Made by a program: the position numbers and the translations under genes. Of a DNA stretch of 28,762 nt, positions 3,564 through 26,475 are shown in pieces. Source of the DNA: a virus; IMG/VR virus record IMGVR_UViG_3300028840_002330, positions 1-28,762 of that record; one strand, given 5' to 3'. Position 1 is the first letter of the stretch. Every line of letters starts with the position of its first letter. The notes below the pieces were generated by a model. The model ran no database searches, was not told the origin of the DNA, and saw only the letters and a list, made by a program, of their open reading frames with translations.

Positions 3564-4277
3564 CTACTGTGCTTTGCTACAAAATCGCTCGTAATCGCGA
3601 AGGATGTTGATGCTCCGAAGGCAATCGTCAATCCTTTCAACGGCAATTTGGAGCCCGTGGTCAAGCCATTGTAATTGCTCTAGGTCTTCCGCCTGCGCCA
3701 AACGAGAATCGGACATGCGACGGATCGCTTTGAGTGCGTCCGGCCGAAAGACATAGGCCCCGACATGTTGCATGGCACCCGCAATCGGGGCCCGAGAGAA
3801 ATACATTGCCCAGTCAGTCGATCCCACGGCGACTTTAACGGTGTCTGGCTCATCGTAAACACCCGCCGCCAACGGACACACCAGCGTGGCAATACCCAGC
3901 CGGGGGAGCATCATGGCTCGCCGAATCAAGGCATCAAGGGCTTCGCCGGTGATCTCTGGCTCATCAGCCTGGAGATTAACAACGATGTCTGGCGGATGAA
4001 GCAACTTGGCCACGGCTGCTATCACTCGCCGCGTGCCATTCGGATAGTCGCCTGCCACCAAAACATGGGGCGCACGGAACTCCATGGCTGCTATCGCCAC
4101 CGCATCACTTCCGGCCGCAATCAGCACCCGAGTGGCCAATTTCGACTGTCTGGCCGCTTCGTAGGTGTGCTGCAAGAGCGTTTTGCCGGTTTTGTCCAGC
4201 AAAACCTTACCCGGCAGCCGTTTGGACTGCTCGTGGGCAGGGATCACGATCGTGATGTTTCGATACGGCCGTATCAA
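3564..4277 (-). CDS. kdsB: CMP-Kdo synthetase-like cytidylyltransferase
   Basis: The 237-aa length and motif order match 3-deoxy-manno-octulosonate cytidylyltransferase, which activates Kdo with CTP to CMP-Kdo. Visible are IPAHEQSKRLPGK (residues 12-24, nucleotide loop), NLQADEPEI (101-109, with the metal-binding Asp of the Q-x-D-E-P motif), YFSRAPI (159-165), HVGAYVFR (171-178) and EDLEQLQWL (197-205). The start appears to be the TTG at 4277, just before the first strand, with GAGGGGC upstream. Two positions differ from the usual family: the GTDR/GTER motif reads GTRR (81-84), and the C-terminal G-V-D-T-P-E-D-L motif reads S-I-N-I-L-R-D-Y (222-229). It may therefore act on another ulosonic acid or be impaired. 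The family call is firm; the exact substrate is not. Confidence 0.85.
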   Translation of the reverse strand: MIRPYRNITIVIPAHEQSKRLPGKVLLDKTGKTLLQHTYEAARQSKLATRVLIAAGSDAVAIAAMEFRAPHVLVAGDYPNGTRRVIAAVAKLLHPPDIVVNLQADEPEITGEALDALIRRAMMLPRLGIATLVCPLAAGVYDEPDTVKVAVGSTDWAMYFSRAPIAGAMQHVGAYVFRPDALKAIRRMSDSRLAQAEDLEQLQWLDHGLQIAVERIDDCLRSINILRDYERFCSKAQ

Positions 4278-5057: not shown

Positions 5058-6566
5058 TTATCCGCAATCTTCCGCGCTCGCTCCCGTAAAATGCCCTGCG
5101 GAATCAAAAGTAAGCGTTGTGGTGCAAATGACGATTTCGTTAGTTTCTAAGTCGCAAGCAACATCTGTTACGACTTCTATTGTGCCTCCGTCGTCGCCAG
5201 TAGTAGAACTAGTAGAGCTGTCTAAGGTACTGGACGTACTGCTGGTACTAGACGTACTGCTGGTACTAGACGTACTGCTGGTCGACGATGTGCTGCTCGT
5301 ACTGGACGTACTGCTGGTAGATGACGTACTGCTGGTAGACGATGTGCTGCTCGTACTGGACGTACTGCTGGTACTAGACGTACTGCTGGTCGACGATGTG
5401 CTGCTCGTACTGGACGTACTGCTGGTAGATGACGTACTGCTGGTCGACGATGTGCTGCTCGTACTGGACGTACTGCTGGTACTAGACGTACTGCTGGTAG
5501 ACGATGTGCTGCTCGTACTGGACGTACTGCTGGTACTAGACGTACTGCTGGTAGACGATGTGCTGCTGGTACTAGACGTACTGCTGGTAGATGACGTGCT
5601 GCTGGTAGACGATGTGCTGCTCGTACTGGACGTACTGCTGGTACTAGACGTACTGCTGGTCGACGATGTGCTGCTCGTACTGGACGTACTGCTGGTACTA
5701 GACGTACTGCTGGTAGATGACGTGCTGCTAGTGGATGACGTGCTGCTGGTAGATGATGTACTTGATGTACTGCTAGTAGACGAGCTAGACGTTCCGCTTT
5801 GAGACGACGTACTCGATGTGCCGCTACTTTCCGTGAAAGTGCAACAAACGTAGGTAAACCACTGATACTCGTCGTCTTCCCCGAGGGCTGCATAAACCCA
5901 AATCACCGTGCCTTCTGGAATATATGGAATGTCGGTGCAGGTCTCGCAGTTTTGGTCCCATTCATCGTACAGATTACAGACAAACGCTTCGGGGCCTTCG
6001 TTTGCTGGAGAACCGCCAGCCGATTCGTCAGATTGCAGATATTCGATCGTATAGTTTTGCCGGCCGGCTGCATTGGTATATTCCAGCCGCACAAACTTGA
6101 TCGGGTAGACGTTTGGTTCATCGCCGGCCTTGGGGTAATCATCAGAATCATCGCGACACGTGATTGCATGCCGGATGTGCCGGGTCGAGACGGGAACGTA
6201 TTTTCCGTTGTGGGTGAAGCACGCCACTCGTTCACCATGATCATACGGCAATCCAAATGCGTCCACGAGGTTGTCAACTTCTTCAGCCGACTGGAATTCG
6301 CCATCAGCTTCCGAATAATTCAAGGCCGTACCGTCACGGTTGAGGAATTCTGAAGATTCCTCTGGGCCGATTACCTCATCTAGCTCGATGATTTTGATCG
6401 CCTGAGATGCAGTCGTAGCAGGGATGTGGAGCAGCGGACGAGCCACTTCATCGATCTTGCGATTCATCGACTGGAGATGCGCAGCCGACAACGGATCACC
6501 CGGCTCCCACGGTACTAGGTGTGGGTCGCGATCTGGCCGCTGATTTGCATAGCCGTCTTCTGCCAC
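5058..6566 (-). CDS. Tail/fibre protein with about 200 residues of Thr-Ser-Ser repeats
   Basis: The GTG at 6566 has GGGGA upstream and lies 14 bases after the previous stop. The 502-aa product has three parts. Residues 1 to about 245 form a virion-type head whose start (PGDPLSAAHLQSMNRKIDEV, about 22-41) resembles trimerising N-termini of phage fibre proteins, followed by a beta-rich region. Residues about 247-450 are nearly pure Thr-Ser-Ser repeats. The last 50 residues (from GDDGGTIEVVTDVACDLE onward) form a short beta-rich tip with three cysteines. The linker would be extended and flexible or, if glycosylated, stiff. It follows tape measure and a tail protein, so I read it as a tail-tip or fibre component. 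The repeat region also leaves a long open frame on the other strand, which is a shadow. Confidence 0.8.
   Translation of the reverse strand: MAEDGYANQRPDRDPHLVPWEPGDPLSAAHLQSMNRKIDEVARPLLHIPATTASQAIKIIELDEVIGPEESSEFLNRDGTALNYSEADGEFQSAEEVDNLVDAFGLPYDHGERVACFTHNGKYVPVSTRHIRHAITCRDDSDDYPKAGDEPNVYPIKFVRLEYTNAAGRQNYTIEYLQSDESAGGSPANEGPEAFVCNLYDEWDQNCETCTDIPYIPEGTVIWVYAALGEDDEYQWFTYVCCTFTESSGTSSTSSQSGTSSSSTSSTSSTSSTSSTSSTSSTSSTSSTSSTSSTSSTSSTSSTSSTSSTSSTSSTSSTSSTSSTSSTSSTSSTSSTSSTSSTSSTSSTSSTSSTSSTSSTSSTSSTSSTSSTSSTSSTSSTSSTSSTSSTSSTSSTSSTSSTSSTSSTSSTSSTSSTSSTSSTSSTSSTSSTSSTSSTSSTSSTSSTLDSSTSSTTGDDGGTIEVVTDVACDLETNEIVICTTTLTFDSAGHFTGASAEDCG
5221..5790 (-). repeat. Nested 9/18/54-bp tandem repeats coding for Thr-Ser-Ser
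   Basis: The stretch is built from 9-bp units, mostly alternating as an 18-bp pair, with a higher-order unit of about 54 bp that recurs several times with few changes. In plus-strand spelling a typical pair is ctgctggtactagacgta. Synonymous third positions vary in a regular pattern, so the array is older than a simple slippage tract but still expands by whole units. All units are multiples of three and keep the reading frame. Confidence 0.9.
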
Positions 6567-6580
6567 AAAATGTCCCCGGC

Positions 6581-7393
6581 TTACGAAATTAGAAACAGGT
6601 CCGTAAACGTGCCTTTGATGTACATGTCATGGCCACTGTCTCGCTGTACGCGACGCCACTTTTTCTTAGCGGCCCCGGCATTTACCTCAGGGTCGTACAT
6701 GTGATTCCAGGTCACCGTTGTATCGCCGTCGACATTCCGCTCTTGGAACCGAAACACGGCGTCATAAACCAAAGAGCCGTCCGAGGCGTACCGTTCGGCA
6801 ATGTCAGCTCCCATAAATAGCAGGCATTCGGCCGCTGCCCCCTCGAATGTCGCATCATTGACTTTTCCAATCAATGATCGGATGGCCGTAACGGGAATGG
6901 TGGCTAGCCCCTTGACGGTAACCTCGTGGTTGATAGTGCCGACAAATATCCCGCCCCGCATTTCAGGATTTTTGATCGGTACTACCGGGCTCACATCCGC
7001 CCAGACCAGCCCGATATTCGGGATAGTCAAGAGTTGACCACCTACGCTCCAGCGTCGCGTGATAGGGTGATCAGCCGCGTCTAGCTGCCACACATAATTC
7101 TTGTAGCGAATCGTGACGTGGGCTGTGGCGTAATTATTGATCGGTGTCGCCACGACTCCAGCGGTCGTGCTGGTGACTTCAGCTTCCTTGAACAGTGGGG
7201 CAAAATCCACTGCTTCGGCCCGCAAATACGACGACCCGGGACATAGTGCGGGCAATCCGAGAGGCGGAAACAACTCTTGATAGAATGCGTCGATATTGGC
7301 CCATGCAATTTCTCCCGTCCGGACAGCGCGTAATTCCTTGGCAGTTGCGGAAAACTGCGGAGAACCAACATCTTCGTAAAATGTAACTGCCAT
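6581..7393 (-). CDS. Putative distal tail protein, 270 aa
   Basis: The start ATG at 7393 lies just after the tape measure stop (7397-7399). The protein is beta-rich with no membrane segment. The first 90 residues look like an adaptor domain (MAVTFYEDVGSPQFSATAKE; FYQELFPPLGLPALCPG). The middle contains alternating hydrophobic strands (HVTIRYKNYVWQLDAAD, IFVGTINHEVTVKGLATIPV), and the end is basic (GAAKKKWRRVQ). In siphovirus gene order the product directly after tape measure is usually the distal tail or baseplate hub protein, and its length would fit. I see no diagnostic motif, so the name rests on position. Confidence 0.6.
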   Translation of the reverse strand: MAVTFYEDVGSPQFSATAKELRAVRTGEIAWANIDAFYQELFPPLGLPALCPGSSYLRAEAVDFAPLFKEAEVTSTTAGVVATPINNYATAHVTIRYKNYVWQLDAADHPITRRWSVGGQLLTIPNIGLVWADVSPVVPIKNPEMRGGIFVGTINHEVTVKGLATIPVTAIRSLIGKVNDATFEGAAAECLLFMGADIAERYASDGSLVYDAVFRFQERNVDGDTTVTWNHMYDPEVNAGAAKKKWRRVQRDSGHDMYIKGTFTDLFLIS

Positions 7394-7396
7394 GAT

Positions 7397-9424
7397 TTAT
7401 GGTGTTGCGCGATTGATGATTTCACCCAGTCTGGCGGTTTGTTGCCCCAAGAGGTTGCCCATGGTAGCAAAGAATCCGCCGACGCCGCCCGCCAGGTTTT
7501 TCATGTCGCGGGCCATTTGCTTTTGCGGATCGTTCTGGTTCAGCAATGCAAGCTGCATGGCATCTCCGTAGCCGGCCAGGCCCATGAACGAGGAACGGTG
7601 GCGGTCGCCCGAACCAGCCCCAGCCAGTCCACCAAGCATTTGTCCCAGTGGACCACCGGCACGACCGGCCAACGCCCCGAGTACCCCGCCACCTGCCGCA
7701 AATTGTGCGTCGCCCCAAGCTCCACGCCCAGCCATCAATCCTTGGCCTAAGGCCCCATGGAGCCACTTGCCGGCACGCCAGCCCCAGCCACTTTCCCGTG
7801 TTTCTTTGGCAGTTTCCGCGCGTTTTGTTTGCTGCTCAGGGTCTAAAAAATTGCGAAGCGGCTTAAAGAGTTGGCTTAACAGTGGATCGCCACCAGCCAT
7901 TAACTTTGCGTGAGCAGTTTGCATGCGATTCCATGCAGCTCGTCCTTGACCTATTTTTTGTTGCGCGGCGCTCCATTTATCTTGAACGTTAGCCTGAATC
8001 AATCGCATCCGTTCCTTCCACGTCATATCCTTCCATTTGACAGTAGTGGCGTCTTTTAGAGCCTGCTTATGCTGGGTCATTTCATCCATAAACCTAAAGC
8101 CATCTGGCCCCGGTTTTCCCCGACGAGGGCCGCCATCTGGACCGAAACCGCCCCATTCCCATGTGCCGTATTTTCCTAAAAAAGCATCCTTGACTGCTTC
8201 CCGTACTGTAGTGTCATGGCTAATTTCTTTTGGCTTAGATTTACCGGGCATCCAACTTGGCGTGGCCTCGTAGATGGCCGATGCAATTGTATAGCCAAGA
8301 TGTTCACCCAATCGTTCCAAAAACGTGCTCATCGCTCGCCAGACTGCGGACAACAAAGACTGAATTATGTTTCCTACCACTCCCAATATTTTTTGTCCTT
8401 GCTTTATCCATCTTGCTAAATCAATGCTGCGAATTGCCGTGGCGATTGCATCCAACATCTCCTTCACGCCTTCTAGCATGCCCTTAAACTTGGGCAATTG
8501 ATTGTTGACGACTCTCGCTCCTAATTCCGCAAATGCTCCTATGATATTGCTGATTCCCGTGGAGATTGGCAACAAAATTTTCCCGATGTTCTCGAACAAT
8601 TGTCGGAAGTTCGCCCCCATCCGACGCATCGTGTTGGCAAAACTAGTTGCCGATCGCTCCATATCGCCCTGGGCGTCTTTGGTGCCATCCAAGATCACGC
8701 CCAGCCGAGCCATCACCTTTTGCTGCGCCGTAGCTTCGCGAGTGCCGCCCTTGATGCCCTGCTCCAAGAGCTTGGCGTTGAGCGTCGATTCACTCAAGAC
8801 AATTCCGTAAGCACGCACCGCTTCATGGTTGCCAACCAAGGCAGACGTCATCCGCCGCATGGCAATGGCTGGATCGTCGTCATGGAAAGACGCCAAGTCG
8901 ATACTCAATTCAGTAAGCGTTTTCGACAAAGCCATAGCCTTGTCGCGGGCGAATCCTAGAGGCACGAATGTGTCTTGAAACCCAGCCATCCATCGCCGCA
9001 AATCAGATGTCGCTAGTCCAAATCGCCGGCGAAAATTTCGGACGATCTGATCCGCTTCCTTGTTCAACCCCTTGAAAACAACGCGATACTTGTTTTCGAT
9101 CTCCTCTGCCGCGCTGGCCAACTTCAGGCTGCCGAAAATTCCGCCTGCCAAGATGGCAGCCATCCCCAGCATGCCCCACTTGACAATCGAAACAAGAGCA
9201 CTCATCCCGCCCGTCACAACCGCGCGGACAATAGAAAACCCAGACTTTAGGGTAACAACAAGCGTTCGGACGAATCTCTGCCCCATGAGCCGAGCAGCTT
9301 TCCCCGCTACAGCAACCATTTGGTTTGTAAATACGTGCCGAACTTGGTTGATTTCTCGACGTAATCGTTTCGTTTCCAGGCGAACGCTTAAATAAGCCGT
9401 AGCGAGCTTGGATGGACCGGGCAT
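7397..9424 (-). CDS. Tail tape measure protein
   Basis: This 675-aa protein sets tail length and is threaded through the tube. Evidence is position (directly after the two-frame chaperone), length, and content: a basic helical N-terminus (KRLRREINQVRHVF), a hydrophobic Gly/Ala segment at about residues 62-97 (VVTGGMSALVSIVKWGMLG then MAAILAGGIFG), then a characteristic tape-measure core around residues 100-300 (SAAEEIENKYRVVFKGLN, FGLATSDLRRWMAGFQDTF, RMTSALVGNHEAVRAYGI), and a Gly-rich C-terminus. At roughly 0.15 nm per residue it predicts a tail near 100 nm. No lysozyme or peptidase domain is visible. The ribosome-binding site before the ATG is weak, suggesting coupling to the chaperone gene. 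Confidence 0.9.
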   Translation of the reverse strand: MPGPSKLATAYLSVRLETKRLRREINQVRHVFTNQMVAVAGKAARLMGQRFVRTLVVTLKSGFSIVRAVVTGGMSALVSIVKWGMLGMAAILAGGIFGSLKLASAAEEIENKYRVVFKGLNKEADQIVRNFRRRFGLATSDLRRWMAGFQDTFVPLGFARDKAMALSKTLTELSIDLASFHDDDPAIAMRRMTSALVGNHEAVRAYGIVLSESTLNAKLLEQGIKGGTREATAQQKVMARLGVILDGTKDAQGDMERSATSFANTMRRMGANFRQLFENIGKILLPISTGISNIIGAFAELGARVVNNQLPKFKGMLEGVKEMLDAIATAIRSIDLARWIKQGQKILGVVGNIIQSLLSAVWRAMSTFLERLGEHLGYTIASAIYEATPSWMPGKSKPKEISHDTTVREAVKDAFLGKYGTWEWGGFGPDGGPRRGKPGPDGFRFMDEMTQHKQALKDATTVKWKDMTWKERMRLIQANVQDKWSAAQQKIGQGRAAWNRMQTAHAKLMAGGDPLLSQLFKPLRNFLDPEQQTKRAETAKETRESGWGWRAGKWLHGALGQGLMAGRGAWGDAQFAAGGGVLGALAGRAGGPLGQMLGGLAGAGSGDRHRSSFMGLAGYGDAMQLALLNQNDPQKQMARDMKNLAGGVGGFFATMGNLLGQQTARLGEIINRATP

Positions 9425-13117: not shown

Positions 13118-13873
13118 CTACGCCCACAAACGGCCGTAGTTCCGGAATGGTTGTAACAACAACTGAGCTTCTTGCGGCACATTGACCACCAGCCCCGACC
13201 CGGCCACCGCCGATCCGCCACCATACGAAACCGAATACTTGCCAATCGATTCTGCCGTTACAGGCCCCGCCCCGCTGCTCGATTGATTCGACTTCCATCC
13301 CCAAAACGCGCGAGCCGCCGTGATGATCACCGCTTCCTTGATGGGAGCCGCCTCTGCATCAAACTGGGCCGCCGTCCAGCCGCCAGAATACGTCGCCTTG
13401 ACGGTACGCGGTTCCGATGGCCATGTGCCACCAATACGAATCAAGGCACCCGACCGGCTAAAAGTCGTGTCGTCCATGTCGAGATAGAAGTCGGTGCCCG
13501 CCGTCAACAGTGTGCTGCTGCCAAAGGCATCGTCCGCCTGCCCCGCATAGGCCCCGGTGTCTTCGTACACGGCCAGGCTCGTGGACCACACGGGGATATG
13601 CTTCAGTTGCAATCGGCTCAGCCGAGAATAGCGGCCTTCCCGGACAACCTGCCCGCCCACCATGCCGTAATCTTCAAGCGATACGTCACCATGCAGCTCT
13701 TGGCCAATAGGCAGATATTCCGTATGCGTGCCAAACTCCAGGTCGTTTTGCATGTACGACTTGACGGCACGTTCTGCACGAGCGTGGACCGAATCCAACA
13801 GGCCCAAATCAGCATCAGAGATCGTTGATCCCTTGCCGATGGCCACCAAGATTTCAGCGCGTGATGTAATCAC
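13118..13873 (-). CDS. Head-tail connector (gp6/adaptor-like)
   Basis: The GTG at 13873 has GGGAG six bases upstream. The 251-aa product starts with helices (ISDADLGLLDSVHARAERAV, residues about 18-37) followed by a long beta insert (DFYLDMDDTTFSRSGALIRI, WPSEPRTVKATYSGGW) and a helix PIKEAVIITAARAFWGWKS, ending EAQLLLQPFRNYGRLW. The helix pair and the L-x-P-F-R C-terminus are typical of adaptor proteins that ring the portal; the beta insert makes it longer than HK97 gp6 (about 110 aa), a form common in other phages. It opens the block that continues with stopper, gp10-like and tail terminator genes. Confidence 0.8.
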   Translation of the reverse strand: MITSRAEILVAIGKGSTISDADLGLLDSVHARAERAVKSYMQNDLEFGTHTEYLPIGQELHGDVSLEDYGMVGGQVVREGRYSRLSRLQLKHIPVWSTSLAVYEDTGAYAGQADDAFGSSTLLTAGTDFYLDMDDTTFSRSGALIRIGGTWPSEPRTVKATYSGGWTAAQFDAEAAPIKEAVIITAARAFWGWKSNQSSSGAGPVTAESIGKYSVSYGGGSAVAGSGLVVNVPQEAQLLLQPFRNYGRLWA

Positions 13874-13885
13874 AAGAATCTCCCG

Positions 13886-14302
13886 TTAAGATGACGACGA
13901 CGAATCGCTTGATGAACTGGATTCCTCTTCGCCTACTTCGCCGCCCATGGTGGGGTGCAAAACCATTACCCCGTATTCCGCATGCTTAATCGCGTCCGCA
14001 GGGGCAGTTTCGCTATTGTCAACTACGGCCAACTCCACATCATAAGCGCCCGGTTCCAAATCAGACGTATCCGTACCGAACCGCACCGTGACGTCATTGG
14101 AGGCAACCGTAAACGTCACGCTTGACCCACCCGGTTCAGCCTCAATCGAACTCATGTCCAGATCGGGAGTGCCGCCACCACGCCCAATCTTCACCCGCAC
14201 AACATCATCTGATAGAAGCGTAACTTCCGTGGTGCCGTCATCTTCAAACAGGTTGACGTCGTAATCCACCACGCGATTTTTGTAAACGTGAATTTGGAAC
14301 AC
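13886..14302 (-). CDS. Protease-less near-copy of the N-terminal virion domain, ending in a poly-Ser tail
   Basis: The start is the GTG at 14302 (reading VFQIHVYKNRVVDYDVNLFE) with AGGCGG upstream, 13 bases after the previous stop. The 138 residues match the first 138 of the upstream protease protein at about 84 percent by eye, including GRGGGTP, VRFGTDT, PGAYDV and HAEYGV. The copy ends within the S-S-S-S-S-D-S-S-S-S-S segment, where the other protein continues into a linker and a protease. The domain is beta-rich and resembles N-terminal domains of phage baseplate/upper fibre proteins (BppU style), an inference from pattern. Mixed assembly with the longer protein would dilute the protease on the virion. 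Confidence 0.75.
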   Translation of the reverse strand: MFQIHVYKNRVVDYDVNLFEDDGTTEVTLLSDDVVRVKIGRGGGTPDLDMSSIEAEPGGSSVTFTVASNDVTVRFGTDTSDLEPGAYDVELAVVDNSETAPADAIKHAEYGVMVLHPTMGGEVGEEESSSSSDSSSSS

Positions 14303-14315
14303 CAGGATAATCCGC

Positions 14316-15569
14316 CTATGAAATCGCTTCGTAAATGCTCGACAAATCTGCCATCGTGACAGTGTACCCAGTAGGACTCTCCCCATCGGCTGTTGCAATC
14401 AATGTGTTTATGGCGTCGGCGTGATATGTGGTGAATGGTCCACGAATCGAAGTGTAGTGGCACGCCAATACATACAATTCTCCATTGAGCGCTAAGCACG
14501 TCGGGTGCCCGCTATCGCCCGGGACCAGTTCTTCGTAATAGAGGCTGCGAGGAGATGTGGCTGGTTCTTGGTGGGTAACATCGTCATCTACAGATTTCCA
14601 CTCAAATACCAGCACTTTTTCTTCTTGATCGAATACAACCAGAGGGCTTCCTACGGCCGTAAAGAAAGCAGCATGATTTGCCGGGAGAATTTCATACCAC
14701 TTGATTGTGCCCGGCAGATCGGAGTCCAAAGCAATCACCTGGATATCACTTAAGTCATGGTCCGCAACTCCAGTGATCTGCCTGGTGACTGCCGTGCCGT
14801 CTTGCGCAATCCATGTTACGACTTTACCGACTAATAGCCCCAAATGCTTAGCTAGTATTGCGTGACGGGGAGTAATTAACGTCCCTGCACGCCGAGTATC
14901 ATAATTATTGTAGTTGCTGATTCCCGTCATGTCGAAATCAGCCGCCCAGCAACCTGTGTTATACGTCGAAGAACCCGTGGGGTTAAAGCCTCCTGCCGCA
15001 AAGATGTTTCTTCGGGCCGCCGTATACTCCCCGGTGATGCGACTGTCAATTTGGTTGCTGATATGTGCATCAAATTGATTGATGATAGTCGAGGAACTGG
15101 ATGACGAATCGCTCGAAGAACTAGACGACGAATCACTGGACGATGAGTCACTCGACGAACTGGACGATGAATCGCTCGACGAGCTCGATTCTTCCTCACC
15201 TACCTCACCACCCATGGTCGGATGCAGCACCAATACGCCATATTCCGCGTGTTTGATCGCATTCGCCGGGGCAGTTTCGCTATTGTCTACCACAGATAAC
15301 GTCACATCATACGCTCCCGGCGTCATCGCGGCCGTGTCCGTGCCAAACCGCACGACTACATTGTTGGTTCCAGCGGAAAACGTCACACTGGACCCACCGG
15401 ATTCCGCTTCAATCGAGCTCAAGTCTAGGTGGGGTGTACCGCCGCCGCGTCCTACCTTGACTCGCACGACGTCATCCGACAAGAGCGTCACCTCCGTAGT
15501 GCCGTCCTTTTCAAATAGGTTGACGTCGTAATCGATAACGCGGTTCTTGTAGGCGTGGATTTGAAACAT
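14316..15569 (-). CDS. Virion-type protein fused through a poly-Ser linker to a chymotrypsin-like serine protease
   Basis: The start ATG immediately follows the stop of the upstream gene. Residues 1-127 are the beta-rich domain shared with the downstream copy. Residues 128-160 are Ser with occasional Asp. Residues about 185-417 carry an S1-type peptidase: LITPRHAILAKHLG (231-244) aligns with the L-I-x-S-x-W-V-V-x-A-A-H-C segment, giving H242; DIQVIALDSDLP (275-286) supplies D275; and PGDSGHP (350-356) gives S353. All three catalytic residues are in the right order and spacing, and H replaces the second G of G-D-S-G-G-P. No export signal is visible, so delivery on the particle is likely. It may clip host surface or capsular proteins, or other virion parts. 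Confidence 0.85.
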   Translation of the reverse strand: MFQIHAYKNRVIDYDVNLFEKDGTTEVTLLSDDVVRVKVGRGGGTPHLDLSSIEAESGGSSVTFSAGTNNVVVRFGTDTAAMTPGAYDVTLSVVDNSETAPANAIKHAEYGVLVLHPTMGGEVGEEESSSSSDSSSSSSSDSSSSDSSSSSSSDSSSSSSTIINQFDAHISNQIDSRITGEYTAARRNIFAAGGFNPTGSSTYNTGCWAADFDMTGISNYNNYDTRRAGTLITPRHAILAKHLGLLVGKVVTWIAQDGTAVTRQITGVADHDLSDIQVIALDSDLPGTIKWYEILPANHAAFFTAVGSPLVVFDQEEKVLVFEWKSVDDDVTHQEPATSPRSLYYEELVPGDSGHPTCLALNGELYVLACHYTSIRGPFTTYHADAINTLIATADGESPTGYTVTMADLSSIYEAIS

Positions 15570-17717
15570 CTAGGTATTCACCCCCTTGCGGGTCCACACG
15601 GCACGCCCCACCCGCATCCTGGTGGCAATAATACTGCTACTACTGCTACTGCTGCTGGTGACGGATGAACTGCTGGACGATGACGATACGCTGCTCGAAC
15701 TGCTGCTAGTGAGAGATTCGCTGCTACTGGACGATGATGCTGAACTACTGGACGATTCACTGCTACTACTACTATCGCTGCTGCTGCTGCTTCCGCTACT
15801 ACTGCTGCTTTGACTACTACTACTATTGCTGCTCGTGCTACTGGTGCTACTGCTGCTGCTGCTCGTGCTCGATTCACTACTGGTAGATGACTGGCTAGCG
15901 TCAGGCGAAGAACTACTTTCTTCCTCTAACTCAATAGTGTCGCTCGTCACGCTCGTCCAATTGCCGTCAACATCTCGGAATCGAGCGTAGACCGTTTTCA
16001 CACCTAGGTCTGCCGTCAAAGTCCATGAGTGCGTAGTCGCGTAAGGCTCAACCTGGGACCACGTACTACCATCATTAGAAAACTGCATCAGCGCCCCGTT
16101 CTGGAACGGGAACCGAGCGGATGATCCCATACCAGAGCCGGCATCGGTCACGCTGATGTTTAATGTTACAGACTGTGATGTGGTGGTGGCATCTCCGTTA
16201 TTTATCGCAAACGAACCGATCGTCGGCGGTATGTATTCGTAGGCTCCTGGGTCCAAATATCCGTTTACATCAGTCCAACCATCCGGATCAGTCGACAAGA
16301 ACCGCACTTCATTGTCGGTCGTGTTCGTTTCCGTGACTTCATAGGTCAGTTCAATGCCGTGCTCGTCGAATTCGTTACGGATGTTTCCATATGCACCACC
16401 AGGAGCGTCATAGCCAGCGATATTGTCCGTGAAAGACACGTCCAGAACGGCTTCGCCGGCAGGCTGGTTGTGCCCCGCGTACATGAGATATTCGTCAATC
16501 TCACTGAAGAAATTATCAGTGATCGTGATTCCGGCAGAGCTAGAATAGTGCTGAATCCCTCGTGGAGCGTCAAGAAACCTGTTGTTTGATATGTCCGTAC
16601 TTGCGGCCTGAGCGTCGTACGCACCCAGGATTACCGCTGCCCCTTGCAGGTTCCTGATGATGTTTCCCTGGACCTTCGTGGCGGACATCGCCCCCTTGAG
16701 TTGAGCGCCAAGTTTTCCATACGCTGCGTTGGTGCAGTCGGCGTAGTTGTCCACGATGTAGACGTCGTTGACGCCGCTGCAATACCACACATGGCTATGC
16801 CCGTCGTCGCCAGCGGCGATATAGTTTCGCAGCGATAACCCATGTTGGATGTATCGGATCATCGTTGTCGACCCGGCACCTGCATTGTAGTTGCCACATC
16901 CCGTGATCGTATTTCTTCGGTGGATCGTCCTCGCGCAGTCTCCGATCTTTCCGAAGTTCTTCAGCGTGCAATCTTCAATGACCTCGTGCATCCGCTGAGC
17001 GTAGGTGTCGCCTCCGACGGTGAACTGGGGGTTGTTCACGTAGGTATCCGGATCGTTTTCCATCTCGATCTGGAGATTGCGAACAAGCAGATACGTGTCA
17101 AAGTCTGGGGCCACACCGCCATGAATCGCGAAGAAGCAATGTTCTCCACCCGCTGCACTGTCGTCGCTGAAGATAAACCGAGGTTGCGTGGCCCCCGTCC
17201 CCACGAAAGCTAGTTTGGTGATCTTGGGGTCACCGCCGAAGTTGTGAGCGTCGAAATCAACGACAAGCGTCGTGTTTGACTCAAAGGAATCTTCCCACAG
17301 ATATGTTCCCGACGGGAACTCAATCTTCATTCCCGTCGTATCGTTGTAATTGTCCCGAAGATATTGCTTTAACGTCGCTTGGCAGTTCGTGTTGCCCGTG
17401 TTGTCGAGGCCGATGTCCGTGACTGCATCCACGGTGGGCATGGACGAGTGAATGGCCACGTCCACGATCAAGACCACTTTTTCCGAATCTCCTGCATCGT
17501 CCGTCACAGTCACGGTGACGTAATGTATTCCAGGATATTCAAACGTGTGCGATGGGTTCTGCGTCGTCGTCGGATTCTTGTACGTTTCAATGTCGTCAAA
17601 CTTCCACGAATACGTGTATGGCGCAGTTCCTCCAGATGGCGTGCAGGTGAAGGTGACAGAATCATCCACCTCCGGTGACACGCTCGACGCACTGGCTACT
17701 ACTGCAAGGTCTGCCAT
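15570..17717 (-). CDS. Tailspike-like protein: PKD domain, right-handed beta-helix, Ig-like domain, poly-Ser tail
   Basis: The 715-aa product begins with a PKD-type domain (residues 1 to about 90: GGTAPYTYSWKFDD, HTFEYPGIHYVTVTVTD). Residues about 95-500 form a parallel beta-helix, with short coils rich in Asn and repeated units such as NTITGCGNYN, VQGNIIRNLQGAAVILGAYD and DISNNRFLDAPRGI; this fold is typical of polysaccharide-binding or cleaving spikes. An Ig-like domain follows (IGSFAINNGDATTTSQSVTL to VTSDTIELEEE), then about 85 residues of Ser-rich linker and a short tail containing VGRAVWTRKG. The domain order suggests host-glycan binding on the virion. Whether the helix cleaves glycan is unknown, since no catalytic residues can be assigned. 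Confidence 0.8.
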   Translation of the reverse strand: MADLAVVASASSVSPEVDDSVTFTCTPSGGTAPYTYSWKFDDIETYKNPTTTQNPSHTFEYPGIHYVTVTVTDDAGDSEKVVLIVDVAIHSSMPTVDAVTDIGLDNTGNTNCQATLKQYLRDNYNDTTGMKIEFPSGTYLWEDSFESNTTLVVDFDAHNFGGDPKITKLAFVGTGATQPRFIFSDDSAAGGEHCFFAIHGGVAPDFDTYLLVRNLQIEMENDPDTYVNNPQFTVGGDTYAQRMHEVIEDCTLKNFGKIGDCARTIHRRNTITGCGNYNAGAGSTTMIRYIQHGLSLRNYIAAGDDGHSHVWYCSGVNDVYIVDNYADCTNAAYGKLGAQLKGAMSATKVQGNIIRNLQGAAVILGAYDAQAASTDISNNRFLDAPRGIQHYSSSAGITITDNFFSEIDEYLMYAGHNQPAGEAVLDVSFTDNIAGYDAPGGAYGNIRNEFDEHGIELTYEVTETNTTDNEVRFLSTDPDGWTDVNGYLDPGAYEYIPPTIGSFAINNGDATTTSQSVTLNISVTDAGSGMGSSARFPFQNGALMQFSNDGSTWSQVEPYATTHSWTLTADLGVKTVYARFRDVDGNWTSVTSDTIELEEESSSSPDASQSSTSSESSTSSSSSSTSSTSSNSSSSQSSSSSGSSSSSDSSSSSESSSSSASSSSSSESLTSSSSSSVSSSSSSSSVTSSSSSSSSIIATRMRVGRAVWTRKGVNT

Positions 17718-17750: not shown

Positions 17751-19040
17751 CTACCGCGACCACACCGCCCGACTTACACCGCTAATAGACCAAGTCGCAT
17801 CTCCAGGATACAATCCCAACCCCTGCAACACTGATGATGAGCTGGTGCTAGACGCACTGCTGGTGCTTGACGTAGATGATGTACTACTGGATGACGAACT
17901 GCTAGTGGACGAACTACTGGTGGACGAACTACTCGAAGATGATGTACTAGATGTACTGCTCGTTGATGACGTACTGCTCGACGACGTGCTAGACGTGCTG
18001 CTAGTGGACGATGCACTACTTGTTGACGATGTGCTGCTAGACGACGTACTGGACGAACTACTGGTTGATGACGTGCTACTCGTACTGGACGCACTGCTGG
18101 TCGATGACGTACTGCTTGCACTAGACGTACTACTGGTGCTGGATGTGCTGCTGGTGCTAGATGCACTACTTGTCGATGATGTACTGCTGACACTTGACGT
18201 GCTGCTAAAGCTGGAGGTACTACTGGTCGATGATACACTACTGGTTGACGACGTGCTGCTAGCGCTACTCGTCGAACTCGTCGAACTGGACGACTCTTCT
18301 TGAAATAAGTATTTTGGCGTCCGCCGTGCCACCCTCACCAGCGCCAACGGATCGTCCGAGTACAACTGAATTTCCGCCGCCGAGAGCACTCGATTCCAGA
18401 TCGCAAATGACTCGATGGTGCAAATCTGGTTGTCACCCGTCGTCACGTCAGTACCGAGATAGAGCGACTGGCTCACCGTGGTGAAGTCCACGGCACTACC
18501 AGCGTCCGCGTCTTGCAGGACGCCGTCGAAATACAGACTCCCCGTTCCGTTGGGCGTGCCAGTGACCGAATCGAACGTGAAAATACCGACGCGCGGATAG
18601 CCGATCCCTCGCAGATCGAGAGGCCGCACGGCCCCCACTTCACCGCGAAGCCACATCGCAGAACCCGTTCCGATGCACTCGATGCAATTATCGTCGTCGA
18701 CGAACCACCCCCAGTACGTCTTCCACGCCGACTCATTGTTGAATGTGCCAACGAACGCCACGGTCATGCCCATGTTGGTGACGTCAGACAGCGTTAGTGG
18801 AATGTTCGCGTAGTCGCTCGCCGTGCCGTCGAAATAGAGTCCTTCAGTCAGCCATGTCGTCCCCGTAATCGTGCCATCTCGACCCTCACCGGATATATCG
18901 TACAGGATGCCGCCTGTGGGGCCCAGCGCAGGGAACCACGCACCAACCAGACCTTCCCACAAACTCGGATGCGCGGGGCGGCCAGTAGCCGGAGCGTACC
19001 CTTGGGCGTAATTCGGTTGCGTGACGCCTGGAGTAATCAA
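17751..19040 (-). CDS. LamG-domain adhesin with long Ser/Thr-rich region
   Basis: The TTG start at 19040 overlaps the previous stop as TTGA. Residues about 25-240 are a concanavalin/LamG-type domain: GLVGAWFPALGPTGGILYDI, the G-R-D-G-T-I-T-G-T loop, LYFDGTASDYANIPL, a strand with GSLYFDGVLQ, and the closing IESFAIWNRVLSAAEIQLY, which is the family's signature end. Residues about 248-405 are Ser with Thr, in TSS-type repeats. The last 25 residues (LGLYPGDATWSISGVSRAVW followed by SR) are ordered. The last few resemble the end of the downstream spike (R-A-V-W-S-R compared with R-A-V-W-T-R). Carbohydrate binding at the virion surface is the likely role. Confidence 0.8.
   Translation of the reverse strand: MITPGVTQPNYAQGYAPATGRPAHPSLWEGLVGAWFPALGPTGGILYDISGEGRDGTITGTTWLTEGLYFDGTASDYANIPLTLSDVTNMGMTVAFVGTFNNESAWKTYWGWFVDDDNCIECIGTGSAMWLRGEVGAVRPLDLRGIGYPRVGIFTFDSVTGTPNGTGSLYFDGVLQDADAGSAVDFTTVSQSLYLGTDVTTGDNQICTIESFAIWNRVLSAAEIQLYSDDPLALVRVARRTPKYLFQEESSSSTSSTSSASSTSSTSSVSSTSSTSSFSSTSSVSSTSSTSSASSTSSTSSTSSTSSASSTSSTSSASSTSSTSSTSSSSSTSSSSTSSTSSASSTSSTSSTSSSSTSSTSSTSSTSSSSSSSTSSSSTSSSSSSSTSSTSSTSSASSTSSSSVLQGLGLYPGDATWSISGVSRAVWSR
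17840..18290 (-). repeat. Imperfect 9-bp tandem repeats coding for Ser/Thr-rich linker
   Basis: The array is built of 9-bp units of the type (minus strand) three Ser/Thr codons, less regular than the one at 5221-5790. Serine codons of both the TCN and AGY types alternate, so the protein repeat is maintained with diverse DNA spelling. It encodes residues about 250-400 of the LamG protein. Confidence 0.8.
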
Positions 19041-19539: not shown

Positions 19540-20541
19540 CTAGTTCTCCCATTCCCGGCTAATTGTCACTGCTCCCGCCATCGGCTCGACACGATAATCA
19601 CGACACCGTCGCAATTCCACGATCGGTGGTTTATCGGGACCGGTTCCACCACTAAGCAAACGATTCATGCACTGGACGTAAACCCCGTTGCAGTCCTCAA
19701 ACAAGCAGGGAGGTTGGTCGGTGGCCAGAGTTAAGTTGCGCTCGAACCGGCAACCCTCCAGCCTAAACCCATAATACTGGCGCACCCGTATGACAAGAGG
19801 CTGGGCCTCCAAGACGCAACCGTAAAAAGCCCCGTTGGAACCACCTTTTAGATCGATCGCATACTGCGGCTCCCATCCCTCTGATTGCAGGCCGTTTTTC
19901 TCGATCAAACACCGCTGAAACTGGAATTCGTTCAGTCGTCCACTGGTTGCGTCAATCACCTGGCCGTTGTACATCAACTCAGAATCAAGCACGGCCAATC
20001 CACCGTAAGTAGAACTGCCGCCGGGCGCGTTCTGAAACTCGAATGCTTTGGCGAAATACTTGATCGCACAGTCTGCAAACTTGAACGGCCGCAAATACTG
20101 ATCCGGCGGAGAAAACCGAAACGCCGTTCCGCTTTTCTTGGCGTGGAAGTAAATACCCCGTGCCTTGAACCCATAAGACCGTTCCGTAGCCGGCTTGTCC
20201 TTCGATACCATCGTAAAGAGAGCATCATTGGGATTTTCCCCCTGCCACTCGATGGTGCAAGCGTAAGTCTTCGGGCCTCCGCATCCCCGCAATGCGACAT
20301 TGGGACACCGCACAATAATTGGCGTTTTCACGGGGTATCGTCCCCGGGGAAATTCAATAATTCCACCAGACATATCCGGCCATTTCCCGTCATCGTCCAC
20401 GAGATTATCAATGGCACGTTGAATTGCCGGCCCCCAATCACTCGAATCATCGGCGTAATCGCGGATGTTGGCAGCCATGGCCGTGCTGCACAACACGACC
20501 AATATAAGCATCAAAACAACGCGGAAAAACTTCGCCATCAT
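19540..20541 (-). CDS. Exported pectate-lyase-like beta-helix protein
   Basis: The start is the first of two ATGs at 20541, after AAGGGGAGGG, overlapping the upstream TGA. The N-terminus (AKFFRVVLMLILVVLCSTA, cleavage likely after A-M-A) is a clear Sec signal peptide. The mature part opens with a Pectate_lyase_3-type segment: NIRDYADDSSDWGPAIQRAI then GGIIEFPRGRYPVKTPIIV (residues about 24-80), followed by beta-helix rungs rich in paired Cys and Asn (FRLEGCRFERNLTLA, CLFEDCNGVYVQC). The total is 333 aa. A signal peptide is unusual for a tailspike, so it may be secreted by the infected or lysogenic cell to act on surface glycans. Enzymatic activity is inferred from the fold only. Confidence 0.7.
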   Translation of the reverse strand: MMAKFFRVVLMLILVVLCSTAMAANIRDYADDSSDWGPAIQRAIDNLVDDDGKWPDMSGGIIEFPRGRYPVKTPIIVRCPNVALRGCGGPKTYACTIEWQGENPNDALFTMVSKDKPATERSYGFKARGIYFHAKKSGTAFRFSPPDQYLRPFKFADCAIKYFAKAFEFQNAPGGSSTYGGLAVLDSELMYNGQVIDATSGRLNEFQFQRCLIEKNGLQSEGWEPQYAIDLKGGSNGAFYGCVLEAQPLVIRVRQYYGFRLEGCRFERNLTLATDQPPCLFEDCNGVYVQCMNRLLSGGTGPDKPPIVELRRCRDYRVEPMAGAVTISREWEN

Positions 20542-20849
20542 GGCCCTCCCCTTGCAAGACAAGTAGCTAGTTTGGTTTCAATCACATGCAAAGTCGCACG
20601 GGTCTTCTCGTCACGTTTCGCCGCCCGTTCCTCGTGCTGCAAGACGGTATCGTTGACGCGGCTAATAGTCTGAGTGTTGGCTTCAATCACCCGCGTGTTT
20701 GCACGGACCACGCTGACCAACTGTTTCACTACCCACCAGACAAAGACAAACAAGAACGCCAATAACACCACCGTCATGCCGGCGAATCCGTATCGAGCCA
20801 CGGGTTGCATTAGGTGGTCAATCATCATGTCGTCAGCAGCAAAAAGCAT
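20538..20849 (-). CDS. Single-pass membrane protein with coiled coil (holin-like or BhlA-like)
   Basis: The 103-aa product has one strong transmembrane segment at about residues 22-45 (YGFAGMTVVLLAFLFVFVWW), followed by a long heptad-like helix (VRANTRVIEANTQTISRVND, then HEERAAKRDEKTRATLHVIE). One membrane anchor with a coiled coil fits BhlA-type holins, though other phage membrane proteins share this form. The ATG at 20849 has GGAG about ten bases upstream. It follows the EF-hand gene and overlaps the secreted beta-helix gene by four bases. With the cysteine peptidase upstream, it could belong to a lysis module, but no muramidase or amidase is visible nearby. Confidence 0.6.
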   Translation of the reverse strand: MLFAADDMMIDHLMQPVARYGFAGMTVVLLAFLFVFVWWVVKQLVSVVRANTRVIEANTQTISRVNDTVLQHEERAAKRDEKTRATLHVIETKLATCLARGGP

Positions 20850-21375: not shown

Positions 21376-22176
21376 CTAATGGTTATCTTCCTTCCACTCG
21401 TTGACCTCACATCGCGGCATCTCCGACATTCCCTGTCGCGTCGTGCCATCTCCCACGGCCGTCCTGACGGCAAACGCACCGTATCCAAAATTGATGTCTC
21501 GGCTGAGTCGGTCCACACCAAATCCGCCGTCACCCCAGTCCCCCCAGGAGTTCAGGTAGAGAAACCGATCCTCGTCCAGCATTTCCACTCCGGCAATCGC
21601 GTGCCCACGCCGTCCATAGCCGACAAGAAAGCCCTGTAGAAGAGCACTGGCGAATTCGTCGCGAGTCTGGATGTCGTAGAATTCGTCGATTCGGTACTTC
21701 GATGCGTACTCGTCAAGCAAGTCTTGCGACGGTTTGGCTCGCCAACCCTTCGACCGGGGCCAGATTTCCATCGGCATGATGCCGACGTCGCGAGCCCGTT
21801 GCATGTTGCTGTCGACCGAACTGCCGCCGTCTCGGCCTCCCGAAGTCCATGCGTAGAGACTCCATGGGTTCAACAAAACATGTTCCATGCCCGCCAGCGC
21901 ACGAGTGGCCATCTCAATGCCAGCGGTCTTTTCGGACGCACAGGATCCGACGCCGTCCTGCGACAGCACGTCATCCACCAGAATGCGAGCCGTGACGCCC
22001 TCTTGTTCGCGTTGCTCGATCAGATCACTCCACTCACGGCGGGGGATGACTGTGATCCGCTCCGATGCCAGCGGGCACAAGTCGCCGGGTTTCGACTCAC
22101 GGGGCAAGCACCCCGGTTTCGTCCCGTCAGGGCCGTCGTATGACTGCCAGTCGTGCCTATAGTCAAACGTGCTCAT
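21376..22176 (-). CDS. Papain-like cysteine peptidase (C1 family style)
   Basis: The ATG at 22176 overlaps the previous stop as ATGA. The 266-aa product carries the papain catalytic pattern: Q73 and C79 in SQDGVGSCASEK, H192 in GRRGHAIAG, and N209 in YLNSWGDWGDGGFG. Spacing and the N-S-W-G-x-W-G-x-x-G motif are those of C1A peptidases, though the usual W after the catalytic Cys is replaced by Ala. There is no signal peptide or long pro-region, so it may act in the cytoplasm or be packaged. It lies between a signal-peptide protein and the EF-hand protein. A processing or host-attack peptidase is likely; the target is unknown. Confidence 0.85.
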   Translation of the reverse strand: MSTFDYRHDWQSYDGPDGTKPGCLPRESKPGDLCPLASERITVIPRREWSDLIEQREQEGVTARILVDDVLSQDGVGSCASEKTAGIEMATRALAGMEHVLLNPWSLYAWTSGGRDGGSSVDSNMQRARDVGIMPMEIWPRSKGWRAKPSQDLLDEYASKYRIDEFYDIQTRDEFASALLQGFLVGYGRRGHAIAGVEMLDEDRFLYLNSWGDWGDGGFGVDRLSRDINFGYGAFAVRTAVGDGTTRQGMSEMPRCEVNEWKEDNH

Positions 22177-22847
22177 CGGTGCCCCTCCACGAATTCGACC
22201 GCCTCACGAGCAGTTGCCGGCATCTTCTCAACGGCCACCACTGCGTGTCCGTCTGAAGTCAAGGAGCCAACGGCGAGCAGGGGGAGCTGTTTGCCCTCGG
22301 CTGTTTCCAGATACGGGACCAGCCACGTCGGCGTCTTCCCCGTCTGGCTGTCCTTCAGGTCGTCGTCGACTATCCTGTACCAAATCCCTTCCTTCTCCAG
22401 ATGCTTGCGAAGCGCCAGAAGCGTCGTCGCCTGAGAGGGCGTCCTCTCTGTCGATTCCTCGATCACTACCACCGCCAGCTTTCCGGGCACCGGCGGTGGA
22501 GGCGGAGGTGGGGGCGGGTGGCCCTCGCCGATCACGGTTACCGTCAAGCTAATGGGTTGGAAAAATTTTTCGTCCCACTTGATCAACATCCCGAGAATTT
22601 CGTACTCGCCAGGCTTCAAGGCCCGAAACATCGCGTGACCGTCATGGATTCTGGGTGGGCCAGCGGTTACGCGGGACGTGGGGAAAAACTTCGCCACAGC
22701 GCCCTCCGGGACATCCTGAAACTCATACCAGACAGGCTCGCCAGCCACCACCTCGACGGGGCCAACGATTGTTGCCTGCCCGTAAGCCGTCGCAGCCATG
22801 AGGCAAAGCAGAGCGGACAACAGAAAGCGGAAAGCGGTTCTTGACAT
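22173..22847 (-). CDS. Signal-peptide protein with Ig-like domain, poly-Pro linker and C-terminal alpha/beta domain
   Basis: The ATG at 22847 follows two AAGGAG-type sites. Residues 1-23 (FRFLLSALLCLMAATAYG core) are a Sec signal peptide, with an early Arg. Residues about 26-105 form a beta-sandwich (VEVVAGEPVWYEFQDVPEGA, MFRALKPGEYEILGMLIKWD). A run of nine prolines links it to a C-terminal domain of about 105 residues (LAVVVIEESTERTPSQATTL, TPTWLVPYLETAEGKQLPLL). The latter resembles a thioredoxin-like fold without the active-site cysteines, an impression only. It shares a four-base overlap with the cysteine peptidase gene, so the pair are co-translated and may interact. Exact function is unknown. 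Confidence 0.65.
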   Translation of the reverse strand: MSRTAFRFLLSALLCLMAATAYGQATIVGPVEVVAGEPVWYEFQDVPEGAVAKFFPTSRVTAGPPRIHDGHAMFRALKPGEYEILGMLIKWDEKFFQPISLTVTVIGEGHPPPPPPPPPVPGKLAVVVIEESTERTPSQATTLLALRKHLEKEGIWYRIVDDDLKDSQTGKTPTWLVPYLETAEGKQLPLLAVGSLTSDGHAVVAVEKMPATAREAVEFVEGHR

Positions 22848-24694: not shown

Positions 24695-25846
24695 CTATGC
24701 TTGTCCCGCCGTAATCTTGCTCATCGAGCCGCTTAGCTCATTCTGTCCACCGAAGCGGGCACGCACCAGAATCATTTGCTGATTCTTGCGGGCCAGTTCC
24801 TTGTCCTCGGTGACCACTCGCACTTCCAACCCCTGCCGGCGATAGAGCCGGTAACGGTTCAGGCAGCAGAAGAGGATTTCGGCATTGCTCAGCGATTCGT
24901 TGATCGCGTAGCGATGACCCAGGATCGCATAATCCTCGTGCGTGTTGGTTTCCATGCCGAAGACGCGGCGGGCGTCCGTCTCGCTGACGTCGATCGACCG
25001 GGCCCGCTGATAGCTGGTTTCCGTGCCGATGAAACAGGTCCGACCACCTGCCCGCCGGGCTTCCGCCCGGTACTGCTTGGCCACGCCAAACAGCAGGGCT
25101 TCATAATCACCCACTGTCTGGGCGGCACCTGCGGTACCTTCTGGCGTAATCGCCGAAACACCCGAGGTGTTCAGCAATCCGGTCGGGCGGGCCGTACCGC
25201 TACCGGTCGCGATGACGTTGTCCATCTCGGCCTGGAACCGCTGGCCGTAGTTGTTGACCAGGATGTTGCCCACACCCACCGGCGAATCGGCCTCAAAGTC
25301 CAGCCCGATTTCGATGGCCCCGGTCAACGGGAAGATCGTGGTATCCAATGCCGCGATCAGATCATCCGTGTCAAACAGCGAGATTTGCGAGCCCTCGGCA
25401 ACACCCCACGACAGGGTCGGATTGCCGACACTGAACCCCTCGATTCGACGCCGCGTGGCGTTCCGGATGCTGACGTAGGGGTACAGCTCGCCATGGAGCA
25501 GGGGCGTCAGAACGGCCGCGTCGTCGAACTCAATCGGCACCGCTTCCAAGCCGCCCGAACCTGTGGTAGTGGCATCATCCAGCAACGCCTTTCGCTGAAT
25601 GTCACTGAGCTTTTGCCCATAGGGATCAAGCCACTGGCGGGCGTCGTCCAGGCTGTCATTCCAGTCGAGCGGCCCCACGAACTTGCATTCGTGAACGGCA
25701 TAATCACAGAGCTTCTTGTCGATGTCTCGCATCCGATAGGAATGCGGAACCGGTCGGCCCGAACGCCGAAACGCCGCCGCCACCATCTTGCGAAACCACG
25801 CACCGGTAATCGCCGAAACGCCGCCGCCACCATCTTGCGAAACCAC
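24695..25846 (-). CDS. Major capsid protein (HK97 fold), C-terminal frame after a 47-bp duplication
   Basis: This 383-aa frame carries the capsid shell domain: GGLEAVPIEFDDAAVLTPLL (about residues 95-114, the early conserved strand-turn of Phage_capsid proteins), LSWGVAEGSQISLFDTD, EMDNVIATGSGTARPTGLLN (the characteristic G-T-G-x-x-x-P-x-G-L motif) and the C-terminal ARFGGQNELSGSMSKIT. In the sequence as given it is separated from the N-terminal part by a frame shift. Removing one copy of the 47-bp duplication at 25764-25857 joins both frames without any stop and gives a single 577-aa protein starting at 26475. The GTG at 25846 is an in-frame codon and not a convincing start. Confidence 0.9.
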   Translation of the reverse strand: MVSQDGGGGVSAITGAWFRKMVAAAFRRSGRPVPHSYRMRDIDKKLCDYAVHECKFVGPLDWNDSLDDARQWLDPYGQKLSDIQRKALLDDATTTGSGGLEAVPIEFDDAAVLTPLLHGELYPYVSIRNATRRRIEGFSVGNPTLSWGVAEGSQISLFDTDDLIAALDTTIFPLTGAIEIGLDFEADSPVGVGNILVNNYGQRFQAEMDNVIATGSGTARPTGLLNTSGVSAITPEGTAGAAQTVGDYEALLFGVAKQYRAEARRAGGRTCFIGTETSYQRARSIDVSETDARRVFGMETNTHEDYAILGHRYAINESLSNAEILFCCLNRYRLYRRQGLEVRVVTEDKELARKNQQMILVRARFGGQNELSGSMSKITAGQA

Positions 25847-26475
25847 GCACCGGTAATCGCCTGGCTGCGCTCGGTCGGCATGTTGATCGGACGGGCACCA
25901 GGCCCTTCGGTCGCCGTCTTGAGCTGCTGATCACCCATCGTGTTGCGGAGATGCTCCTTGCTCGACTTGGCCCACGTGGCCGCCGTTCGCGTGTCGTCGA
26001 ACTGCTCGACCACCGACTTGACGCGGATGTTATAGCCGTCAGCCGCACCGGCACCATCAATACCAGCCGTGCCGGCCTTAGTCATTGTGTCGGCCGGATT
26101 CGGGGCACCATTCTTGGTTGCCAGCGGCGGGGTGTCATCTGCCGGGGTGTCGTCGGCCTTGGTGTCAGCGGGCGGATCATCGGCCTTGTCGTCACCTTCG
26201 GCCGGCTTCAACAGGCTGCCCAAGGCGTCCAGCTTTTCGTTCAGCGGACCGAGATTAGCATCAAACGCCTTCTTGACCTGCTCGTCCACCATCGCGGCAA
26301 TCCGGGCCTCGGCACCCGCCGCCTTGGTGGTCATCAGCTTCTTGAGCGTGTCCAGGTCCAGATCGCCCTTGGTGATCGCGTCGCTGACCGCCTTGCGAAT
26401 ATCGTCATCCGCCGCATCGGCCGCCACGTTCAAGTTCTCAACTGCGTACTTTCGCAGAGCTTCGGTAATTTCCAT
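25507..26475 (-). CDS. Major capsid protein, N-terminal (delta/scaffold) frame, broken by a duplication
   Basis: The ATG at 26475 has GAGG seven bases upstream. The first 220 or so residues are the scaffold-like delta region: helices (MEITEALRKYAVENLNVAAD, ARIAAMVDEQVKKAFDANLG), an acidic/Pro linker with D-D-x-P-A-D repeats near 95-120, then a segment ending RSQAITGAWFRKMVAAAFRR just before the shell domain. In HK97-like phages this region is removed by the prohead protease. After the repeat the frame continues into unrelated residues to 25507, so only the portion to about 25811 is real. Whether this is a natural lesion or an assembly error is open. Confidence 0.85.
   Translation of the reverse strand: MEITEALRKYAVENLNVAADAADDDIRKAVSDAITKGDLDLDTLKKLMTTKAAGAEARIAAMVDEQVKKAFDANLGPLNEKLDALGSLLKPAEGDDKADDPPADTKADDTPADDTPPLATKNGAPNPADTMTKAGTAGIDGAGAADGYNIRVKSVVEQFDDTRTAATWAKSSKEHLRNTMGDQQLKTATEGPGARPINMPTERSQAITGAWFRKMVAAAFRRLPVRGFARWWRRRFGVRADRFRIPIGCETSTRSSVIMPFTNASSWGRSTGMTAWTTPASGLIPMGKSSVTFSERRCWMMPLPQVRAAWKRCRLSSTTRPF
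25764..25857. repeat. Exact 47-bp tandem duplication inside the capsid gene
   Basis: The 47-bp unit at 25764-25810 is repeated without change and without a gap at 25811-25857. Since 47 is not a multiple of three it shifts the frame. One copy alone gives an uninterrupted capsid gene. Confidence 0.97.

Follow-up and report, generated by a model that had tools for sequence, protein, structure and literature searches.

A predicted chymotrypsin-fold serine protease domain, joined through a linker of serine and aspartate to a probable virion anchor, has been found in a virus record of 28,762 bases, which is the whole stretch of DNA analysed here and is referred to as the window. On balance we favour an active protease displayed on the virion, which would cut protein on the host cell or close to it and give access to the receptor or the wall. 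The fold, the triad, the duplication of the anchor, the family and the fusions of its relatives to virion modules have been established computationally, and from these we infer the virion location, the catalysis, the target and the entry role of the window protease. The gene and its parts are as follows.

14316..15569, minus strand: whole gene (anchor, Ser linker and S1-like protease domain), ATG start, 417 amino acids
15192..15569, minus strand: N-terminal domain, residues 1-126, probable virion anchor by its neighbouring copy and its identity to L003 and L099
15090..15191, minus strand: Ser/Asp linker, residues 127-160, almost only Ser and Asp in the sequence
14319..15089, minus strand: predicted chymotrypsin-fold domain, residues 161-417 (AlphaFold2 model, chymotrypsin alignment, trypsin profile match)
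14844..14846, minus strand: H242 codon, catalytic His equivalent, 78/78, aligned with the AAH of trypsin
14745..14747, minus strand: D275 codon, catalytic Asp equivalent, conserved in 78/78
14511..14513, minus strand: S353 codon, catalytic Ser in GDSG, conserved in 78/78

The AlphaFold2 model of residues 167-417, predicted with 44 aligned relatives, has a pLDDT of 94.5 and a pTM of 0.91; the single-sequence prediction reached a pLDDT of only 32.7. Chymotrypsin was the top Foldseek match of the model (E 4.5e-10) and Umb1 structures (8w20) were also found among the matches. Alignment of the model with delta-chymotrypsin in VIA-align 2 gave a Z score of 18.5, with 2.7 A over 180 residues. The family profile also matched trypsin chains of the PDB (E 3.2e-4), and in this match the His, Asp and GDSG line up. 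Residues 161-417 are thus modelled as the two-barrel chymotrypsin fold of clan PA. The original prediction had proposed a trypsin-fold domain on a poly-Ser tether with the residue order H242, D275 and S353; structure prediction and superposition agree with the fold, the tether is present as the Ser/Asp linker, and the triad positions are exact with matching contexts, namely TPRHAILAKHLG around H242, HDLSDIQVIALD around D275 and VPGDSGHPTC around S353.

Each of the three residues was found to be identical in 78/78 non-redundant members of the family (less than 85% identity to each other, 63 of them from virus contigs), and the relatives are overall about 22-38% identical to the window protease. 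The conservation of His in the first sample is partly by construction because the DNA pattern used to collect it (GTLI[ST]P[RS]H-x5-H) contained the histidine. A second pattern, DQEEKAL, holds none of the three catalytic residues and so gave a sample unselected on the catalytic motifs; where the respective part of the domain is present in its loci, the triad is again complete (H 17/17, D 19/19 and S 19/19). This invariance suggests, at the level of sequence, that catalysis is under selection in the family. A chance occurrence of GDSG was rejected as the family shows selection, and a pseudo-protease was rejected as the triad is invariant.

In common with the MEROPS S1 family (chymotrypsin/trypsin, clan PA), the window protease has the double beta-barrel, the H-D-S order, GDSG and the PRH-x5-H spacing. 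Unlike S1 members it lies below Pfam recognition, and the nucleophile motif is GDSGHP in the window and GDSGNP in most relatives, where S1 has GDSGGP. The Cys which trypsins have after the catalytic His is absent, and the family has a conserved N-terminal helix and an RN..CWA segment (N.GCWA in the window). An obvious zymogen N-terminus of the IVGG type is not seen, though a [D/N]-x-R-[IL] stretch is common ahead of the domain, and the domain is joined to phage virion modules. Among the chymotrypsin positions, Gly 193 is replaced by Tyr in 10/122 rows. Position 215 is Trp, by eye, in the majority of relatives but His in the window protease, which together with the missing Cys counts against the favoured reading.

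Scanning of the viral contigs with the first pattern returned 79 viral loci, nearly all with a homologous domain (blastp to E 7e-41). The DQEEKAL pattern added 20 further loci, and the family profile matched 19 of these as listed, so about 98 virus loci in total were found to encode the protease domain from two narrow DNA patterns. The original prediction had regarded proteases on such proteins as rare, and this needs revising. With one pattern, 12 loci were found in 84,980 bacterial and archaeal species genomes; they lie in MAGs of Kiritimatiellia/Verrucomicrobia, several Patescibacteria and a few others. A wider look in one phylum gave matches in 27/195 genomes, about 11 of them strong, and in another phylum 1/192. 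A tblastn search of phage records identified one relative, in the uncultured podovirus MW202510.1 (26% identity, His, Asp and Ser in place), and no cultured phage with the domain was found in the collection searched. Plasmids gave no match, and viral contig scans with single-sequence and two-sequence queries returned no relatives. In the tree, bacterial members form groups nested among the virus members (midpoint rooting, modest supports), which may hint at exchange of the domain between phages and bacteria.

Neither Pfam and PHROGs nor a single-sequence search of the PDB gave a useful match to the window protease. Pfam Trypsin (PF00089) did not match the window protein and matched 5/44 family members weakly (best E 2.1e-4), DUF316 matched 8/44 members (best 0.0087), and PHROGs and NCBIfam gave nothing of weight for the 44-member family. 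Since recognition by Pfam, PHROGs and NCBIfam is weak or nil, the family is taken as a distant S1-type branch, outside the standard S1A members and without a family name in the libraries searched. Such genes stay annotated as 'hypothetical protein' because the three libraries do not label these proteases, Pfam excepted in a few cases.

The carriers of the relatives are extremely diverse, and encoding among virion structural genes, or fusion to them, was found. In 89/121 matches, no more than 30 residues separate the end of the domain from the C-terminus of the protein. Its partner in L052 is the T4 gp15 tail-sheath stabiliser (PF16724, E 4.5e-13), phrog_227 was matched in both L052 and L056, and the gp15 fusion of L056 adjoins a portal gene. 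Other partners are a long-tail-fibre N-terminus (L060), Big_2 Ig domains (L015, L018 and L027) and FN3 with DUF285 (L009). The 128 neighbour proteins matched 168 PHROG families, the commonest being virion structural, minor tail, hyaluronidase and tail-fibre families. In MW202510.1 (Manatee Spring) the relative is the hypothetical protein UOF78081.1, whose gene lies in the tail block between rhamnogalacturonan-lyase-type and FN3 genes; it shares the domain and the triad with the window protein and differs in its N-terminal region, in having no poly-Ser linker and in lacking the GTLI[ST]P motif start. The bacterial relatives are large multidomain proteins outside any evident phage structural block, several of them, by eye, beginning with a stretch like a signal peptide and containing parts that resemble cadherin or peptidoglycan-binding domains, which suggests from sequence features an extracellular use of the domain. 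In L017 a single open frame contains the protease domain as a tandem pair, of which the second copy is cut by the end of the locus.

The following other genes of the window bear on the position or the role of the protease gene.

13118..13873, minus strand: head-tail adaptor, which fixes the genomic position (phrog_442, E 1.8e-13)
13886..14302, minus strand: stand-alone anchor copy followed by a short Ser/Asp tail and stop, adjoining the protease gene
15570..17717, minus strand: companion gene with PKD, a weak pectate-lyase-like match and poly-Ser, directly preceding the protease gene
17751..19040, minus strand: LamG and poly-Ser/Thr protein, whose L099 counterpart directly precedes the anchor gene there
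26513-27910: Peptidase_S78 prohead protease

The N-terminal domain of the protease gene and the stand-alone copy share 83% protein identity and 76% DNA identity over 409 bases, and a GTG at 14300-14302 is the start of the copy, matching the ATG of the protease gene. The earlier observation that this domain is duplicated next door without a protease is therefore upheld. The anchor of the protease gene is 45% identical to its L003 counterpart, and the anchor of L099 (10862-11245) is 44% identical to it and 48% identical to the stand-alone copy. In both L003 and L099 a single anchor gene, without protease, lies directly before the head-tail adaptor. The major capsid protein of L099 is 76% identical to that of the window, and its gene order leads from the capsid through a w19552 homologue, the LamG/poly-Ser gene and the anchor to the head-tail adaptor; neither a protease nor a PKD/pectate-lyase gene was found there between the LamG and anchor genes. 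The window has two extra genes at this place, the companion gene (15570-17717) and the anchor-linker-protease gene, and tandem repeats lie over the linker DNA of the latter (15089-15182). The anchor domain had no relative of weight in Pfam or the PDB, and a scan with its own pattern returned one other contig. Search for a host through the capsid protein gave one weak faecal-phage match; the 289 genomes searched in the phylum to which G011 (a Kiritimatiellae MAG) belongs gave none, an empty result which is uninformative.

The simplest reading of these comparisons is that the anchor gene, a small virion gene beside the head-tail adaptor, was duplicated and that one copy probably captured the protease domain at its serine-rich end, in the repetitive Ser-coding tract. 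Residues 1-126 would then fix the protein to the particle, residues 127-160 would act as a flexible tether and residues 161-417 would hold the protease with its H242-D275-S353 triad. A surface layer, an adhesin, a pilus or a matrix protein may be the substrate, and its cleavage would clear the way to the receptor or the wall, as a proteolytic counterpart of the tail-spike depolymerase. Digestion of a protein surface layer of the host, as the original prediction had it, is plausible. Its assignment of the domain to a virion-type carrier was supported indirectly by the place of the anchor upstream of the adaptor in L003 and L099 and by the fusion of relatives to sheath-stabiliser and fibre modules, but a tail or fibre identity was not, as the gene is found in the interval from the major capsid gene to the head-tail connector genes; because of this position, attachment at the head or neck is as possible as at the tail.

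Among the other explanations, a virion maturation protease, cutting its own carrier or neighbouring structural proteins in assembly and not serving entry, is unlikely, though it comes first of those considered. The gene lies inside the structural block, and other phage fibre proteins are known to process themselves, e.g. the S74 chaperones. Maturation is made less likely by the Peptidase_S78 prohead protease already present in this phage, by the diversity of the carriers (T4 gp15, fibre N-termini, Big_2, FN3 with DUF285, poly-Ser) and by the close relative L099, which has the same head-connector block without the protease gene; the bacterial relatives, as large multidomain proteins outside evident phage structural blocks, also speak against it. 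An S74 autoprotease itself was rejected, since Peptidase_S74 was unmatched in Pfam by both the window protein and the 44-member family.

Only a slightly smaller chance is given to a host-takeover or release protease, which would act inside or around the lysing cell and would not be displayed on the particle. Three genes of the same block (20538-20849, 19540-20562 and 22173-22847) start with signal- or membrane-type segments by eye, and an HtrA-like protein is present at the corresponding place in L099. Against such a role, no signal peptide is evident in the protease gene, its anchor duplicates a gene whose position beside the head-tail adaptor is conserved, and its relatives are fused to the tail-sheath stabiliser and tail-fibre modules. 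It is rather improbable that a virion protease frees progeny or detached particles by cleaving receptors or debris, or acts on matrix proteins around cells, with no role in first entry; the anatomy would be the same as in the displayed entry protease and the data are compatible with early and late use alike, but nothing observed favours a late role.

It is very improbable that the domain is a trypsin-fold adaptor or binding module without catalysis. The precedent is UmbA of the umbrella toxin particles of Streptomyces, with a trypsin-like domain that reportedly binds UmbB and lacks catalytic activity (PMC11062931), and the Foldseek results included the Umb1 structures (8w20). Against this, the triad is invariant in 78/78 members despite about 22-38% identity to the window sequence, and a fold used for binding alone ought to have shed catalytic residues in some branches. 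The trypsin fold is common to UmbA and the phage family, UmbA being part of a secreted particle, and the invariant triad of the phage family, from which its activity is presumed, sets it apart from the reportedly inactive UmbA (PMC11062931).

The displayed entry protease resembles the tail-spike and fibre depolymerases (pectate-lyase-like beta-helices) in having an enzyme domain at the end of a virion-type protein, and the location of its gene directly after the PKD/pectate-lyase-like gene also recalls them. It differs in its substrate, which is predicted to be protein instead of glycan, and in having a trypsin fold instead of a beta-helix. The phage virion enzymes known in detail are mostly glycan or peptidoglycan cutters, and the literature covered, which is incomplete, yielded no publication about trypsin-like proteases of phage tails. 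The carrier and the family are new; the fold and the chemistry are already known. It is possible, at somewhat short of an even chance, that these proteins are virion-tethered proteases of the chymotrypsin fold which make up one widespread family, so far without a name, and which phages of many kinds carry on sheath stabilisers, fibres and head-neck proteins and use to breach the protein layers of environmental bacteria. The distribution suggests that phages widely carry protein-cutting tools beside sugar-cutting ones. If this is true, protein barriers such as surface layers, sheaths, adhesins and matrix proteins would be a common obstacle for environmental phages, and the family motif can be used as a marker to find such phages and as a source of new proteases.

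Several other observations were made in the window and in L099. By its motifs (QDGVGSCASEKTAG, RGHAIAGVEM and YLNSWGDWGDGGFG) the window gene at 21376-22176 (minus strand) resembles a cysteine protease of the papain type (C1A); it had no match in Pfam, PHROGs or the PDB and no L099 counterpart, and may possibly be a second protease in the same block as the first. In L099, positions 6169-7737 (plus strand) encode an HtrA-like trypsin-type sequence (GSGCCIQISDDYVWVLTNAHV, DQSIDAAIIAI and GGRSGSAIF) with signal- and membrane-type segments, lying in the capsid-to-connector interval as the protease gene does in the window; L099 has no S1-like gene. The major capsid gene of the window consists of two overlapping frames (25507-26475 and 24695-25846), where L099 has one intact frame of 593 amino acids, and a perfect 47-base tandem duplication lies at the split (25764-25861), which may be an assembly error or a real lesion. 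Long TSS or poly-Ser tracts were found in structural-type proteins at 5058-6566, 15570-17717 and 17751-19040; two of these proteins end alike (GRAVWTR and SRAVWSR), and the LamG protein of L099 has TTWTR repeats at its end. Such Ser tracts may mark junctions at which modules are exchanged. Lastly, the gene at 3564-4277 (minus strand), near glycosyltransferase-like genes, looks by eye like a sugar nucleotidyltransferase of the CMP-KDO synthetase (KdsB) type, which is an unusual cargo for a phage.
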